Below, piece after piece: positions 35,371-40,913 of a DNA stretch of 64,000 bases (positions within the stretch are counted from its first letter, which is position 1; every line of letters starts with the position of its first letter). The notes below the pieces were generated by a model. It saw nothing but the letters and a program-made list of their open reading frames with translations, was not told the DNA's origin and did not search any database. The stretch is from Selenomonas sputigena (GTDB lineage Bacteria > Bacillota > Negativicutes > Selenomonadales > Selenomonadaceae), in the NCBI RefSeq assembly GCF_026015965.1, contig NZ_CP110383.1, forward strand, positions 1,119,501-1,183,500. Direction: 5' to 3'. Made by a program: the position numbers and the translations under genes.

Positions 35371-36161
35371 CGCTTCTTCATATACGCTTCGGCAACAGCG
35401 AGAACATATTCCTGCAGCGCGGCGCCGACAGCGAGATCCCAATCAACATCACCCGCAAAGACCGTATTGGAAACGACGCGGATCGTGAGGAACGGCACAT
35501 CGTACGTCTGGCAAATTTGCGCGACGGCGTCACCCTCCATCTCCTCAACCGCAGTGCCGTAGAAATCATGCAGGAAGAGCACGCGGTCGACTTGGCAGTT
35601 CCAGCTGTCCGCCGTACCGATGACGCCCTCCGTCACGCTTCCTTTCTTGTAGGAGTTCTTGAGCGCGAGCGCCGTCCGAAAGAGACCCTCGTCTGCTCTG
35701 TGAAAGACCTCCTGCGTGAAGCGACGCGCTTCCTTGTCGTAGGCAAAGACGCCGAGCTGGTCGAGTGCCTCTTCATCGACACCCTCACCGCGTGCGCGAA
35801 AGTGCGATTTCCATGCCGATATATTGACCGTCTCTCTGCCTATGACAATATCGAAATTCTTTAGAACCGGATCATGCGCTCCCGCCGTCCCCTGATTGAT
35901 GACGGCGCAGGGGTGAAAGAACTCCATGGCAAGCGCCGTCGTCGCCGCCGCATTCGCCAAGCCCCACTGCGTGCGCGAAACGGCAAGAGGCACGCCATGA
36001 TAAGTGCCCGAGGCGAAGTACCACTCACCGAGCCGGTATTCCTCCAGAGCGTCGAGCTGCTCGACTATATGGCTCGTCTCCACCCTCATCGCACCTTGGA
36101 TGAGCAAGGGCGGCTCCCCCTTGTATGTCTTGCCCGACCGATCTGACAATCCTCCTACCAT
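35367..36161 (-). CDS. MTA/SAH nucleosidase-like (Pnp/Udp family)
   Basis: 264-residue purine nucleoside phosphorylase/nucleosidase fold protein. Motifs include SGTYHGVPLAVSRTQWGLANAA, the conserved VINQGTAGAHDP, and the C-terminal AVEEMEGDAVAQICQTYDVP with VSNTVFAGDVDWD. These fit hydrolysis of methylthioadenosine, adenosylhomocysteine or related nucleosides. The ATG at 36161 has GGAGGG 6 bases upstream; the earlier in-frame start would run past the promoter. It is divergent from the SpeD-like gene, and methylthioadenosine is a product of polyamine synthesis, so the pair may share a SAM-related task. Confidence 0.85.
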   Translation of the reverse strand: MVGGLSDRSGKTYKGEPPLLIQGAMRVETSHIVEQLDALEEYRLGEWYFASGTYHGVPLAVSRTQWGLANAAATTALAMEFFHPCAVINQGTAGAHDPVLKNFDIVIGRETVNISAWKSHFRARGEGVDEEALDQLGVFAYDKEARRFTQEVFHRADEGLFRTALALKNSYKKGSVTEGVIGTADSWNCQVDRVLFLHDFYGTAVEEMEGDAVAQICQTYDVPFLTIRVVSNTVFAGDVDWDLAVGAALQEYVLAVAEAYMKKR

Positions 36162-36206
36162 CCTCTTCCCTCCGTAAAATTCTCGCAAATTCTGCAAATG
36201 CAAAAT

Positions 36207-36235
36207 AGTATACGCCTCTAACTTTACATTGTCAA
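36207..36235 (-). promoter_or_regulatory. Promoter of the nucleosidase gene
   Basis: On the minus strand, consensus TTGACA (36235-36230), a 17-base spacer and TATACT (36212-36207). Its -35 region interleaves with the opposite promoter at 36223-36251. Confidence 0.8.
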
Positions 36236-36251
36236 CTAAATCCTCTATAAT
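36223..36251 (+). promoter_or_regulatory. Promoter of the SpeD-like gene
   Basis: TTTACA (36223-36228), a 17-base spacer and a perfect TATAAT (36246-36251), back to back with the nucleosidase promoter and sharing its -35 region. Confidence 0.8.
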
Positions 36252-36297
36252 GGAAATGACTAACTTTTCGACTTTACCGCAAAGGAGCGATTCCCTC

Positions 36298-36765
36298 TTG
36301 AAGATCATCGCACGGCATCTCACGGCCGACTTATACAACTGTAAAGAAAACAAGCTGCTCGACATGGAGATGACCGTCGCCTCCTTGAGGCGTCTCACCG
36401 AGGAAGCGGGCCTTCACATTCTGCAGGTCGACACGCAGGTGATTGAAAAGGGTCATTTCGTCGTCCTCCTCGCCCTCAAGGAGGGACATCTCGCACTGCA
36501 CACCTACACGGAACTCCGCTACGCGGCGGGCGATATCTTCCTCTGTGACGCGAATGCCGAGCCTGAAACGCTCTTCAAAGGGCTTAGGAGTTTCTTCAAA
36601 CCTGAAAAGATTCGCACGACCTTCCTCAAGCGCGGCGACTTCGGCAAGGCCAAGGATATGAAGCCAAAGATCAAGTCGCGCGTCGCGCCGCTTCGGCGCA
36701 TCCACAACACAGGCGCAAAGGTTATCCGACTTCTCGCGCGTCGCAACCGCAAGAAGAACTTTTGA
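36298..36765 (+). CDS. SpeD-like AdoMet decarboxylase homologue lacking the pyruvoyl serine
   Basis: 155 residues from a TTG with AAAGGAG 10 bases upstream. The start KIIARHLTADLY matches the N-terminus of bacterial AdoMet decarboxylase proenzymes (typically GRHLVAEFY). The core reads KEGHLALHTYTELRYAAGDIFLC where the family has ESHxxIHTxPExGYAAxDxFTCG. Numbered from this start, Glu62, His68 and Cys83 fall at the classical active-site positions, but residue 63 is Gly (GGA at 36484) instead of the Ser that is cleaved to make the pyruvoyl group. It also has a basic C-terminal tail (RRNRKKNF). It therefore cannot mature as a normal decarboxylase. A regulatory or other role is inferred. It is divergent from the nucleosidase gene. 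Confidence 0.8.
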   Translation: MKIIARHLTADLYNCKENKLLDMEMTVASLRRLTEEAGLHILQVDTQVIEKGHFVVLLALKEGHLALHTYTELRYAAGDIFLCDANAEPETLFKGLRSFFKPEKIRTTFLKRGDFGKAKDMKPKIKSRVAPLRRIHNTGAKVIRLLARRNRKKNF

Positions 36766-36792
36766 AAAAAGGCTGCCATCGGCAGCCTTTTC
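36765..36792. terminator. Bidirectional terminator between the SpeD-like and TPR genes
   Basis: AAAAAAGGCTGCC-ATC-GGCAGCCTTTT: a 7-base G+C stem flanked by A and T runs, placed between two convergent genes so it can serve both. Confidence 0.85.
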
Positions 36793-36802
36793 TATTTCAC
36801 CT

Positions 36803-38341
36803 TCACTTATAAGCGGGAAGATCCGGCTCAATCGCCGTCGCCGCTTTGTAGTCACTCTCAGACTCCGCCGTCTTACCCGACAAACGATACAGATAACCGC
36901 GGCGATAATAGAATTTGGCATTGCCCGGCTCCAACCGAAGCGCCGCCGTATAGTCGTCGATGGCCTTCGCCTTCTCGCCCATATTCTCCAATACACCTGC
37001 GCGATTACCAAAGAACGCGGCATTCTTCGGCTCGAGATCGATTGCTGCATCAAGGTCAGCGAGCGCTCCATGAACATCATTGAGCTGGATCTTTTCAATC
37101 GCACGCAAGTTGAGAAGATCCGCATTCTTTGGCTCGATCGCCAGCGCCCTCTCAATGTCGAGAAGCGCCTCTTCGTTCCGATCCATCAAACGATAAGAAA
37201 TCGAGCGCTCGATGTAGATGGGAAGTACATCCGACGTATGCTCCAATGCATGCGTATAATCGGCAATGGCTTCATTGAGCTGACCGAGCGCACGATAACT
37301 TCCCGCACGATTGAAATAAATGAGCGATGCCTGATCGGCGGGCACGCCTTCCAAAAGATGCGTGAAATCTGCAATTGCCTCTTCGTGCTTGCCCAAACGC
37401 TCGAGGCAAACACCACGCCGGCTCAAGGCTGGAACATTTTCCTTTTCGAGCGTCAATGCCGCCGTATAATCGTCCACGGCAGAAGCAAGATCCTGCTTCT
37501 GTTCCTTCGCCAAGCCGCGCTCAATATAGGCGCGCAGTTTGAGAACGTCATCGGCTTTTTCGAGCACATGCGTATAGCCATCTATGGCATCATCGAAGCG
37601 CCCCAGACGATAGAGCAAGGAAGCGCGATACATCTGCGCCCCCATATCGTCCGGTTGTAAGGCAACGGCTCGATCCATGTGCGCGAACGCCGTGCCACTG
37701 TCATTTTGAGCAAGCGCAGTCAATCCCATCTCGAATTCAATAAGCGCATTCCGAGGATCGAAGGACTGCGCCGTAAGAAAATCTTTCTGCGCATCCCCAT
37801 AGCGCTTCATATCGCGCAAGACGATGCCGCGATTGACGAAAGCCGTCGGATTTTCTCCATTGATTGCAATCGCCCTGCTGAATTCTCTGTAGGCAGCATC
37901 GAGATCGCGCTTTTGGTAGCTGTCAATGCCGCTCTGAATTGCGGCGAAGTCCGGCGACTGTCCGGCAACTTCCCCCTGCCTTTTCGGAAGTTCCTGCGCC
38001 ATCTTGCCCGCATCCGACTTCGGCAGCGTCTGCGCCGGCTTTGCTGCATCGCGCGAAGCAGCAGCATTAGATGCAGGCTTTTGCTCACGGTGTTCCTCAC
38101 GCACGGATTCTTGCTCTTGCTCATGCGTTTTCTTCGGCTGCGTTTCCTGCACCTGCTTCTGTTCTTCCGTCTGCTCCGCTTTCGGCTTCTGCGGTTCGAC
38201 AGGCGCGGCCGGCGTGAACGTCCCCAGGGTACGCGCGAGCGCATCGTCCACTGCAGAAGCCGCAGCCGGCAAACAGCCGCACCAAGCGGCAGAACCCGCA
38301 AGAATAGCAGCCAAAGCTGCCGTCTTCATCCCTTTTTTCAC
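36803..38341 (-). CDS. Exported TPR-repeat protein
   Basis: 512 residues. An N-terminal signal peptide (MKKGMKTAALAAILAGSAAW, then cleavage likely after PAAASA, about residue 29) is followed by a low-complexity Q/E/K-rich linker (about 50-125) and then about ten tetratricopeptide repeats to the end, for example NPTAFVNRGIVLRDMKRYGD. It probably acts as a periplasmic or envelope scaffold; no enzyme domain is seen. The GTG at 38341 follows GAGGTGA; an ATG four codons in is the alternative. It lies 18 bases after the DUF445 gene, so it is likely in that operon. Confidence 0.85.
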   Translation of the reverse strand: MKKGMKTAALAAILAGSAAWCGCLPAAASAVDDALARTLGTFTPAAPVEPQKPKAEQTEEQKQVQETQPKKTHEQEQESVREEHREQKPASNAAASRDAAKPAQTLPKSDAGKMAQELPKRQGEVAGQSPDFAAIQSGIDSYQKRDLDAAYREFSRAIAINGENPTAFVNRGIVLRDMKRYGDAQKDFLTAQSFDPRNALIEFEMGLTALAQNDSGTAFAHMDRAVALQPDDMGAQMYRASLLYRLGRFDDAIDGYTHVLEKADDVLKLRAYIERGLAKEQKQDLASAVDDYTAALTLEKENVPALSRRGVCLERLGKHEEAIADFTHLLEGVPADQASLIYFNRAGSYRALGQLNEAIADYTHALEHTSDVLPIYIERSISYRLMDRNEEALLDIERALAIEPKNADLLNLRAIEKIQLNDVHGALADLDAAIDLEPKNAAFFGNRAGVLENMGEKAKAIDDYTAALRLEPGNAKFYYRRGYLYRLSGKTAESESDYKAATAIEPDLPAYK

Positions 38342-38359
38342 GAAATCACCTCATTATAT

Positions 38360-39655
38360 TCAATGGACAAGCTGCAACAAAACGAAGATGACAAGCCCCA
38401 GACCCGCGCCAACGATGGATCCATTCATGCGAATCCACAGGAGATCAGGCTCCACCTTGTCGTAGACGAGATGGTTGAGCTGCTCGTCCGTCAGACGCGC
38501 GAGCACGTCGCGCACGATGACGGCGACGAGATCCTGCGCGGCGAGCGCCGAACGCGCCGCGAGATCGTAGAGCAGCCGGTCGATCGCACGCTGCATCTTC
38601 TCATCCCTGCCGACGAGCGCAAGCGCACGCCGCAGCTCTTCGACGAGGACGGCAGAAAATTTCTCGCGTAAGAGCGGCAATACTGTGTCGAATCTATGCC
38701 TGCCCCGCGCCAAGAAGAAATGCTTCTGCACAAACGCCAAACTTCGCTCGATCGCTTCTTCAAGCGGCAGCCCTCTGAGCATGGCGTCGCGCAGCTCCAG
38801 CGAGAAGGAACGAAACTCCTCGTCGGCACAAAGCTCCTCCGCCTTCTCATAGCATACTGCAAGAAATTCCCTCTGCAGCGCTGAATCCTTTTCGGCCAAT
38901 TCCGTCAGTACGGTCAAGGCCTGATGACGCACGAGGTGAGCGAGATCGGCGAAGTTCACGACGTCCGCGATCTGCCCGATGCCGAGCAGGAACTTGTCCC
39001 AAGTGCTCCTGGCATTTTCCTTCGCATAGTTGAAGAGCAGATCCTCGACCTTTCGGGAAAACTCCGGGGCAGCAGCCTTCTCAGCGAGAAACTGCGCCGC
39101 CCGCGCGACGAGCACATGGTCGCGCTCGTCGTCGCGCATCCAGCGTCCGATCAAAGAAAAAATCTCTTCGGGACGCGACCGCTTCAGTTCGCTGCGCATC
39201 TCGTCCGCAAAGGCATTCGCCTGCTTCTCGCGATCGATGTGCATGGCGAAACTGCGCACATAGTGCAGGAACTGCGCGACGAGCTTTTCCTGCACATCCT
39301 CTCGCCGAAGAAACTCAAGCAAGCGAGCGACGAGGTCGATGTGCTGCAAGGCTTGGAAAATCTTGCGGCGTGAAAAGAACTCCTTCTGCACGAGCGTGAC
39401 CGACGCTTCGATGAAGGACTCGCGGCGGCGCGGCAAAAGCGCCGTATGCCATGGGAAGCCCAACGGCTTCTTGAAGAGCGCCGTCACGGCGAACCAATCG
39501 GCAATGCCGCCGACGAGCGCAGCGTCGGCACAGGCGAGAAAGCCGCGCGCCAGGAGACTCTTCGGATATGCGATGACCAACGCGAGCGCCAAGAAGAATA
39601 CGACAGCGGCAAAGAGCAGCGTCTTGTCCGCCTTGTTCCAAGAACGCCAAAACAT
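38360..39655 (-). CDS. DUF445 membrane protein (second copy)
   Basis: 431 residues. The N-terminal part has two hydrophobic segments and the family signature LVGGIADWFAVTALFKKPLG. A long helical middle follows (about 70-390), and the protein ends with a hydrophobic segment, MNGSIVGAGLGLVIFVLLQL. This is the topology of DUF445 (YheB-like) proteins, whose function is unknown. Its ATG overlaps the stop of the preceding DUF445 gene (TGATG). Confidence 0.88.
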   Translation of the reverse strand: MFWRSWNKADKTLLFAAVVFFLALALVIAYPKSLLARGFLACADAALVGGIADWFAVTALFKKPLGFPWHTALLPRRRESFIEASVTLVQKEFFSRRKIFQALQHIDLVARLLEFLRREDVQEKLVAQFLHYVRSFAMHIDREKQANAFADEMRSELKRSRPEEIFSLIGRWMRDDERDHVLVARAAQFLAEKAAAPEFSRKVEDLLFNYAKENARSTWDKFLLGIGQIADVVNFADLAHLVRHQALTVLTELAEKDSALQREFLAVCYEKAEELCADEEFRSFSLELRDAMLRGLPLEEAIERSLAFVQKHFFLARGRHRFDTVLPLLREKFSAVLVEELRRALALVGRDEKMQRAIDRLLYDLAARSALAAQDLVAVIVRDVLARLTDEQLNHLVYDKVEPDLLWIRMNGSIVGAGLGLVIFVLLQLVH

Positions 39656-40896
39656 CAGCCCACCGCCTTTTCCACAAAGTATGCGATGAGGAAAAGCGCC
39701 ATGCCCGCCATCGCTCCAACGACGGAACCATTGATGCGAATCATCTGCAGATCGTCATCGACGCGGCTCTCCACGAAGGCGATGAGCTCGTCATCGGAGA
39801 AATCCTCCAGCCGCGCCTTGACCATCTGCGTGATAAAGGCGTGATGATCGTTCAGCTCCGCTTCAAGAAGATTCTTGAACATGGCGTCCGCACGCCTCTG
39901 CAGACTCTTCCTCTTGATGAACTCGTCAATCTTGCCGTCTACAAGAAGAAAGAAGGGGTCGCGCCAAAAGGGCGTCTCCCCCTTGGCGTTGCGCTCCAGC
40001 CAAAGGGCGAACTGTTCCGACAGATCGATCCGTTCGAAGGACGTTTCCTTCCACTTTGCAATCGCCTGTTTCAGCGAATCGTTTTTGCCGAGGGAATGCA
40101 GCAGTGAACGGAATTCTGCTGCAAGGCGCTCATACGCCTCGCCCTCGCCCTTGAGCATGGAGCTGATATAGGCGTCCATGTGCCTCACAGCGATTTCCCG
40201 CAAGCGCTCATCACTCAAATCCATCGCCTGAATGACCGTCGCTCGAAGCGACGCCTGTCTTTCATACCGCTCGCGCAGCTCGCGAATGTTTTCCAGCAGC
40301 ACCTCCTGCATCTTCGCGTCGTGCAGCGTTCGGCGCACGGCGCGAAGTGCCACATGCAGGATACGTGCGCTATTCGTCTCTTCGGCAAGCATGTCGAAGA
40401 ACCGCAGCAGGAATTTTTCCAAAGGAAAACTCTTAAAGCTCTCACGAATCGCCGGCCAGATGCGCTCGGCTACATGCGCCGCATCCATCGTCTCAGCCGC
40501 ACGCAAAAGCACGGCGAAGGAGATGTCTTTGATCCGCTCGCGCCCGCCGCGCTCTTCAAGATAGGCGACGAACATCTGCGCCATGTCGATCTTCCTCGCT
40601 ACAGCCATGATGTTCGCCGCACTCAGAAGATCGTTGGCAGCATAGTCGACGAGCGCCTGCATGATGCGCGTGCGATTCCGGCGCAGGATGTCCGTACGGT
40701 AGGATATGCCCAAGGGCTTTCGGAAGATCGCCGTGACGGCGAACCAGTCGGCAAGTCCGCCGACTGTCGATGCGAGGAAAGCCGCCTCCAGAAGATCCCA
40801 GAAGAACCCGCTGCCGACCATAGGCAGGACGGCGAGCGTGCCGATGACGCTGACAGAAAGCGCGAGCGTCGCCTTATACTTTTTCTGCAAGACCAT
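39655..40896 (-). CDS. DUF445 membrane protein (first copy)
   Basis: 413 residues with the same layout as its downstream neighbour: VGGLADWFAVTAIFRKPLG near the N-terminus, a long helical middle, and INGSVVGAMAGMALFLIAYF at the end. The shared end motifs with a divergent middle indicate an old tandem duplication. The ATG at 40896 has GGTGA upstream; a GTG three codons earlier is possible. Function unknown. It is 17 bases after the dehydratase-activase gene. Confidence 0.88.
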   Translation of the reverse strand: MVLQKKYKATLALSVSVIGTLAVLPMVGSGFFWDLLEAAFLASTVGGLADWFAVTAIFRKPLGISYRTDILRRNRTRIMQALVDYAANDLLSAANIMAVARKIDMAQMFVAYLEERGGRERIKDISFAVLLRAAETMDAAHVAERIWPAIRESFKSFPLEKFLLRFFDMLAEETNSARILHVALRAVRRTLHDAKMQEVLLENIRELRERYERQASLRATVIQAMDLSDERLREIAVRHMDAYISSMLKGEGEAYERLAAEFRSLLHSLGKNDSLKQAIAKWKETSFERIDLSEQFALWLERNAKGETPFWRDPFFLLVDGKIDEFIKRKSLQRRADAMFKNLLEAELNDHHAFITQMVKARLEDFSDDELIAFVESRVDDDLQMIRINGSVVGAMAGMALFLIAYFVEKAVG

Positions 40897-40913
40897 ATCG
40901 TTCACCGAAACCG

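Follow-up and report, generated by a model that had tools for sequence, protein, structure and literature searches.

The window analysed here, a 64,000-nucleotide stretch of Selenomonas sputigena DNA, carries a SpeD-like gene on its forward strand at 36298–36765: a coding sequence with a TTG start and a TGA stop, whose open reading frame and profile matches predict a protein of 155 residues with an AdoMet decarboxylase (AdoMetDC)-like domain and a C-terminal tail. A ribosome-binding site, AAGGAG (36282–36287, +), lies 10 nt upstream of the TTG, and 51 of 58 homologues have an SD-like tetramer no more than 20 nt ahead of their start codon. The original prediction had credited the gene with a good promoter and a good terminator. 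The promoter is borne out by a sigma-70-type sequence, TTTACA-N17-TATAAT, at 36223–36251 (+) with 11 of 12 matches, one of two promoter-like sites in 36100–36850 (shuffled mean, 0.2); its predicted position also speaks against a longer open reading frame starting at 36229. The evidence on the terminator is divided: a terminator-like hairpin at 36767–36791 (+) has a folding energy of −18 kcal/mol (z −4.76; none of 200 shuffles equally good), but a consensus terminator scan flagged no terminator at this gene. A search of 35900–37100 against Rfam at gathering scores gave no match.

On the opposite strand, a nucleosidase-like gene (PF01048; 35367–36158, −) is transcribed away from the SpeD-like gene, and its predicted promoter, TTGACA-17-TATACT at 36207–36235 (−), overlaps that of the SpeD-like gene. 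The product of this neighbour matches 15 NCBI models and reaches the cut-off of none, the best being MTA/SAH nucleosidase (96 bits vs. a cut-off of 169). Further along the window, 38360–39655 and 39655–40905 (both −) encode what by eye are tandem, similar-looking membrane-type proteins of 431 and 416 residues.

A glycine at the position of the pyruvoyl-forming serine

In class 1b AdoMet decarboxylases, Ser63 serves self-cleavage and formation of the pyruvoyl group, and His68 and Cys83 serve processing and catalysis. The window protein matches the Pfam AdoMet_dc profile (PF02675) over residues 7–113 with 83.9 bits (cut-off 25) and the NCBI model TIGR03330 over residues 3–113 with 79.8 bits (cut-off 75.65). 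Codons 62–64, at 36481–36489, read GAG GGA CAT (Glu-Gly-His); aligned to Thermotoga maritima AdoMetDC (1TLU), the glycine of codon 63 (GGA, 36484–36486) stands opposite Ser63, with Glu62, His68 and Cys83 in register. Alignment and codon reading therefore agree with the original prediction of a SpeD-like protein with Gly63 and with Glu62, His68 and Cys83 at their classical positions, and confirm, at the level of sequence, that the gene encodes a protein of predicted AdoMetDC fold with Gly in place of the pyruvoyl-forming serine.

Three trivial explanations of the glycine can be set aside: displacement of the serine, a sequencing error and decay of the gene. The only Ser, Thr or Cys residues among residues 51–84 are Thr69, Thr71 and Cys83, and a serine displaced to another position is thereby ruled out. 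Gly63 recurs in a genome of the same genus (G001) and in 79 of 79 distinct proteins encoded by the best 80 of 138 confirmed loci, which were obtained by scanning two peptide patterns over 84,980 species genomes (the 80th protein is identical to another); these 80 loci belong to Selenomonas, Mitsuokella, Megamonas, Schwartzia, Anaerovibrio, Propionispira and unclassified kin. This recurrence excludes a sequencing error at codon 63. For the same-genus pair, the domain has a dN of 0.004 against a dS of 0.36, and the tail a dN of 0. Although the window protein does exceed the curated cut-off for AdoMet decarboxylase, the reading of an ordinary enzyme with a sequencing error, or of a gene in decay, is already refuted.

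Comparison among relatives points the same way. The ratio omega ranges from 0.011 to 0.167 for residues 1–107 (computable in 16 of 18 pairs) and from 0 to 0.244 for residues 108–150 (14 of 18 pairs), and where both could be computed it is lower for residues 108–150 in 10 of 12 pairs and higher in 2, with the caveat that dS is near saturation in several of the compared pairs. These ratios show strong purifying selection on the predicted protein; together with the Gly63 common to relatives, the domain values uphold the earlier judgement that the gene is not decaying.

Predicted structure and the cationic tail

An AlphaFold2 model of the whole window protein, built from an 80-row alignment, has a mean pLDDT of 86.0 and a pTM of 0.73. 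The model and structure comparison assign an AdoMetDC (class 1b) fold to residues 1–114 (36298–36639, +), with residues 4–114 of the model forming the fold itself. Structure comparison, which covers well only residues 1–131, superimposes the model on T. maritima AdoMetDC (1TLU) with Z 17.6 and rmsd 1.9 over 117 aligned residues; the T. maritima matches, including the S63A non-processing mutant, all fall at Z 17.4–17.6 over 117 residues. Other matches are Aquifex aeolicus AdoMetDC (Z 16.5), the human and potato enzymes, trypanosome AdoMetDC and prozyme entries, and human spermine synthase (3c6k; Z 11.0 to model residues 5–120). The phage SAM lyase 6zm9 matches weakly (Z 6.6 over 103 residues), short of what the tool counts as clear and in the range that it calls a common arrangement.

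Beyond the fold lies a conserved cationic tail (residues 115–155; 36640–36762, +), recognized by its charge and by a tail profile. The C-terminal extension follows the consensus RGDFG...DMKP[KR].K...APLRRI.NTGAKVIR.L.R in relatives, and over the 150 aligned family members described below the net charge from residue 124 onward averages +10.3 (range +6 to +20). The model places a strand at residues 124–129 and a helix at residues 138–153 (36709–36756, +; DSSP), at the lower confidence of the tail as a whole (block pLDDT 60–80; 60–74 for the helix). Column conservation peaks at residues 108–123 (0.73, compared with 0.40–0.58 elsewhere), a block whose start still lies in the last part of the ordinary core; residues 124–147 score 0.55 and residues 58–84 score 0.58. 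In 121 of 150 rows the helical moment of residues 130–147, a stretch picked after the tail had been seen, is higher than in shuffled versions of the same sequence (p<0.05); that of the modelled helix 138–153 of the window protein does not stand out in this way (0.139).

Within the sampled phylum, the tail appears to be confined to the class. In a phylum-wide draw searched at E ≤ 0.001, a tail profile that includes the window's own tail and excludes that of one relative (G017) matched both own-class genomes and none of the 59 others of the phylum. Searches of tailed members returned AdoMet_dc from Pfam in 57 of 57, together with eleven unrelated families that matched weakly in 1–5 members each (best E 0.0028), and from NCBIfam TIGR03330 in 57 of 57, TIGR03331 in 5 and, weakly, CofF in 1. 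A tail-profile match to PDB 9szu (whole-sequence E 0.00094, no single stretch better than E 23) was rejected as chance.

A paralogue clade across the Negativicutes

The family profile matches 128 of 130 Negativicutes genomes drawn at ≥90% completeness each; in the other two (G050 and G128) it finds nothing even at E ≤ 1. S. ruminantium is a member of this class. All but one of the 128 matching genomes are represented in a set of 150 rows carrying Arg112 and Pro123, from which we excluded a fragment (L088), a normal SpeH that serves as outgroup (L072), a gene whose tail is cut by the contig end (L043) and the one remaining genome, G113. The G113 paralogue (L251) runs in two frames with a frameshift near residue 106, possibly a recent loss or an assembly error. 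In seven class matches, apparent splitting of the gene by in-frame stops was rejected: each stop is the gene's own terminal stop, overrun by the match.

Ser63 is missing in 110 of the 150 rows: the residue is Gly in 84, Ser in 40, Phe in 10, Cys in 8, Ala in 5, Thr in 2 and His in 1. Other sites are far better retained, namely Asp11, Asp79, Arg112 and Pro123 (150 of 150 each), Cys15 (149), His64 (147) and His68 (142); Cys83 (94) and Glu62 (74) are less so. The combination of Ser63, His68 and Cys83 occurs in 25 of the 40 Ser rows, and hence in 25 of 150; among the 110 rows lacking the serine, His68 persists in 102 and Cys83 in 69. Site 11 (codon at 36328–36330, +) sets the family apart: all 150 family rows have Asp, whereas the seven outgroup rows, T. 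maritima plus six ordinary SpeH from the class, all have Glu; in the separate set of named loci it is Asp in 78 of 79 and Glu in 1. Asp11 versus Glu11 is a clade marker seen in this analysis, with no published definition behind it.

A tree computed without column 63, a quick build with SH-aLRT support only, many open forks and long branches, separates the clade from the six SpeH and T. maritima SpeD with support 100 and places the window protein in an all-Gly set of 47 rows with support 99. Ser63 is the outgroup state; the distribution of Ser and non-Ser requires 7 changes on this tree, at least 4 of them forced by starred branches, although such counts cannot separate loss of the serine from its regain. 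The simplest reading of the tree is that Ser63 was lost repeatedly within the clade. Ser and non-Ser members alike carry the cationic tail, and the simplest order of events would put the gain of the tail and of Asp11 before repeated losses of the serine.

In one group (f25; L226, L229 and relatives), site 63 is Phe in one lineage and Cys in the sister lineage, and Cys83 is mostly replaced by Phe. Judged by these substitutions, the f25 lineages are a separate route of putative active-site loss.

Genomic context

Clustering of neighbours over 150 loci, each with at least 2.4 kb, revealed no operon partner common to the class; the gene was at first unplaced in 10 of 60 loci, the window included, and later placed in 150 of 150 with a simple ORF filter. 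At 106 of 150 loci the family gene and its upstream neighbour are on different strands, and the nucleosidase-like gene accompanies the family in only two, the window and G001. Synteny is seen at lineage level only and, with names assigned by reading, involves ctsR-mcsA-mcsB-clpC, FprA with a nitronate-monooxygenase-like gene, lgt, glmS and a HAD-like gene; an lgt-like (14) or glmS-like (4) gene lies directly upstream in 18 of 150 rows.

A mobile origin was considered and rejected, as the matches in phage (9 records) and plasmid (5 records) collections are all <60% identical. One plasmid-collection match covering most of the query, from Acetoanaerobium, was likewise dismissed: it is a normal SpeD accompanied by speE and without the tail. 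In viral contigs, the two peptide patterns picked out seven stretches, of which none proved to be a relative. A faecal phage-like scaffold (MT839461.1; L295) encodes at 307–1974 a normal-looking SpeD domain with the motif ESHLTIH behind an enzyme-like domain, by eye a fusion in a single frame of 555 residues.

Carriers with and without another AdoMet decarboxylase

The S. sputigena genome (one contig, 2.61 Mb) encodes a second AdoMet_dc protein of 257 residues, with the motif DKSHVTVHTYPE, which by our reading is of the E. coli type. Its gene, about 326 kb from the window gene, is clustered with speE and nspC and with two genes that we read as basic amino acid decarboxylase-like and carboxyspermidine dehydrogenase-like. 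A normal speD elsewhere in the genome, for which the original prediction had advised a search, is thus present, with the motif DKSHVTVH and in a polyamine cluster.

Many relatives differ from S. sputigena in this respect. Exactly one AdoMet_dc match (E ≤ 0.001) was found in 32 of the 130 class genomes, and in 31 of these it is the tail paralogue (the place of the match in G078 lies beyond the matches listed). With G004, G010, G015 and G032 added to the 32, there are 36 genomes that carry a non-Ser paralogue (35 Gly, 1 Ala) and no other AdoMet_dc match; four further genomes (G012, G027, G037 and G056) were left out of this count, three being <90% complete and one having a gene cut at a contig end. 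These 36 are not independent, as 21 belong to family f15 and 7 to genus g17 and many are drafts; moreover, in the genera of single cases such as G026 and G102, other genomes do show a second AdoMet_dc match. In G017 no AdoMet_dc match was found besides the tail paralogue. Conversely, all 40 genomes with a Ser-bearing paralogue have at least two AdoMet_dc matches. In our sample, therefore, the Ser-bearing paralogue is never the sole AdoMet_dc protein, whereas the non-Ser one often is.

Further searches for AdoMet decarboxylases found none. Class 2 AdoMetDC (PF01536) was found in 0 of the 36 carriers, a result that shows little because the control genomes were also silent. A search of 11 genomes for relatives of the 257-residue SpeD, itself run without a positive control, returned none; matches of the AdoMet_dc profile to long-form SpeD in other relatives serve as the positive control for this negative. 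As to the rest of the pathway, speE is absent from 18 of the 36, and among the 12 carriers searched for nspC, nine have matches of ≥397 bits; the other three (G004, G015 and G026) have matches of only 29–44 bits (cut-off 409) and also lack speE. By profile matching, these data show that the gene is kept in genomes with no other detected AdoMet_dc protein, three of them also without detected speE and nspC.

Four genomes (G010, G017, G032 and G050; loci L093, L094, L095 and L096) have speE with a carboxyspermidine dehydrogenase-like gene and nspC, and no speD was detected in them. The SpeE of these genomes may therefore use a donor other than decarboxylated AdoMet.

Discussion

Our analysis suggests, with a probability of roughly 60%, that the window protein is a pseudoenzyme derived from a class 1b AdoMet decarboxylase, is a member of a paralogue clade typical of the Negativicutes, and has a binding or adaptor role in which the cationic tail docks to a partner. 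The alignments and the model show that the residue that would form the pyruvoyl group is gone and that the predicted fold, His64, His68, Asp79 and the clade-specific Asp11 are retained. The parts of this explanation differ in strength: Gly members almost certainly lack pyruvoyl chemistry; a non-catalytic role for the clade protein is probable; docking through the tail is an even call; and a ligand-gated sensor in particular is possible and somewhat doubtful. Whatever its precise role, a family kept by almost all sampled relatives in the class probably does a job different from polyamine synthesis.

The mechanism we propose would run as follows: the tail would have been acquired before the serine was lost; the protein would no longer decarboxylate anything; the old active-site pocket would bind a small ligand, with AdoMet, a derivative of it or a polyamine as the obvious candidates, or alternatively the pocket region would serve only as a dimer scaffold; the tail, with its charge of +6 to +20, would dock to an anionic partner such as RNA or the ribosome, the membrane or an acidic protein; and the clade protein would thus act as a stand-alone sensor or adaptor. 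AdoMet-type and polyamine ligands suggest themselves, given a pocket inherited from an AdoMet site and the stimulation of human AdoMetDC by putrescine that PMC5201418 states. Among the points against the preferred explanation, the retention of His64, His68 and Asp79 would also fit an altered enzyme, and no pathway is indicated, as there is no conserved operon partner; the lower model confidence of the tail, the absence of the gene from G050 and G128 and the relatedness of the 36 carriers count on the same side. Of the roles originally put forward for the protein, a new ligand-binding role comes closest to this explanation; the Gly63 and the intact gene of that prediction stand, the normal speD that it advised looking for is there, and the cationic tail and the class-wide family had been overlooked.

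That retention is one argument for a rival in which the protein would be an enzyme that acts on AdoMet or a related compound by a new chemistry needing no pyruvoyl group, in the manner of, for example, phage SAM lyase, whose published active site is formed by a trimer and includes Tyr and Glu residues, by way of the conserved His and Asp residues (His64 in 147, His68 in 142 and Asp79 in 150 of 150 rows). The structural match to 6zm9 and, in this genus, the nucleosidase-like gene that diverges from an overlapping promoter, as would fit MTA as a product, lend it some appeal. Yet a Z of 6.6 falls within what the tool calls a common arrangement, the nucleosidase-like gene is present at just 2 of 150 loci, and destruction of AdoMet by a near-universal protein of the class would presumably be costly; we consider this chemistry unlikely. 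Such residues count against a further rival, in which the cationic tail would be the main function, binding nucleic acid or membrane, and the AdoMetDC fold would only provide a platform for dimerisation: Asp11, Asp79, His64 and His68 are retained beyond what a pure scaffold would need. The conservation peak at residues 108–123, the mean tail charge of +10.3 and the association of the human spermine synthase N-terminal domain (3c6k, Z 11.0) with dimerisation (PMC11203672) would suit such a platform; the cationic part proper (residues 124–147, 0.55), however, is no better conserved than residues 58–84 (0.58), and we regard this reading as rather improbable.

The comparison with trypanosomes made in the original prediction leads to another rival, a prozyme-like activator, in which the Gly paralogue would pair with the competent SpeD of its genome and switch it on. 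Dead AdoMetDC paralogues are known in trypanosomatids, where they activate the live enzyme, according to PMC5201418; the S. sputigena genome does hold a Ser-bearing second speD, and genomes with a Ser-keeping paralogue had at least two AdoMet_dc matches in 40 of 40 cases. But the prospective partner is of a different subfamily and is encoded 326 kb away, and the 36 genomes in which a non-Ser paralogue is the only AdoMet_dc match imply that activation of SpeD is not the general function. The analogy consequently fails as a general role, which we rate as very improbable, and may still apply within the S. sputigena genome itself.

A bolder form of the pseudoenzyme explanation would make the protein a Negativicutes-wide regulator: a dead AdoMetDC acting as a free-standing polyamine or AdoMet sensor, with the tail linking the supply of amines to some process peculiar to the class. 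The most daring choice for that process is the peptidoglycan, decorated with diamines, to which the outer membrane is anchored, named here because PMC10628300 reports that the outer membrane of Negativicutes is held to peptidoglycan carrying polyamines; translation would come next. The spread of the family through the class, its presence in three genomes that lack speD, speE and nspC and its lgt-like or glmS-like neighbours are compatible with such a regulator, which we nevertheless offer as a long shot.

Known systems each share part of this picture. From class 1b AdoMet decarboxylases (SpeD/SpeH; PF02675, TIGR03330) the window protein keeps the fold, the core length, the RG end of the core and Glu62, His64, His68, Cys83 and Asp79; it differs in lacking Ser63, in having Asp for Glu11 and in its added cationic tail, and its gene is not beside speE and its family is kept in 36 genomes without another AdoMet_dc protein. 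Human spermine synthase likewise has an N-terminal domain of AdoMetDC-like fold, which is not known to have a decarboxylase role. That domain is associated with dimerisation (PMC11203672) and is part of a fusion with an aminopropyltransferase, whereas the window protein is free-standing and tailed. The trypanosomatid prozyme is, like the window protein, a paralogue without key residues (a likeness of sequence in our case), but it activates a live partner, as described in PMC5201418; here a class 1 partner is missing from 36 genomes, and the prozyme has no counterpart of the tail. SpeDA and SpeDC, the pyruvoyl arginine and ornithine decarboxylases, are function-changed SpeD paralogues, some of them beside a second SpeD; the passages of PMC10407285 consulted present them as pyruvoyl enzymes, unlike the window protein and the 110 of 150 rows without Ser63. 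The C-terminal SpeD domain of a Victivallis vadensis fusion has also lost critical active-site residues and does not self-cleave, but, as the same passages of PMC10407285 describe, it is fused to an active SpeD, whereas the window gene is separate and has its own predicted promoter.

A search of open-access titles and abstract beginnings, with subscription papers outside its scope, found no description of a free-standing bacterial AdoMetDC-like clade with a conserved tail. A 2019 Biochem J paper reportedly ascribes a polyamine-independent role to AdoMetDC. If our preferred explanation holds, an enzyme found throughout a bacterial class has lost its catalytic residue, with the remainder, the tail included, strongly constrained, and the reason for keeping a dead AdoMetDC becomes testable in S. 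ruminantium and relatives.

The curated cut-off of TIGR03330 admits the Ser63-less protein (36298–36762) as an adenosylmethionine decarboxylase (79.8 vs. 75.65). As the window protein passes this cut-off although 110 of 150 family members lack the cofactor residue, pathway reconstructions in these bacteria can be misled.
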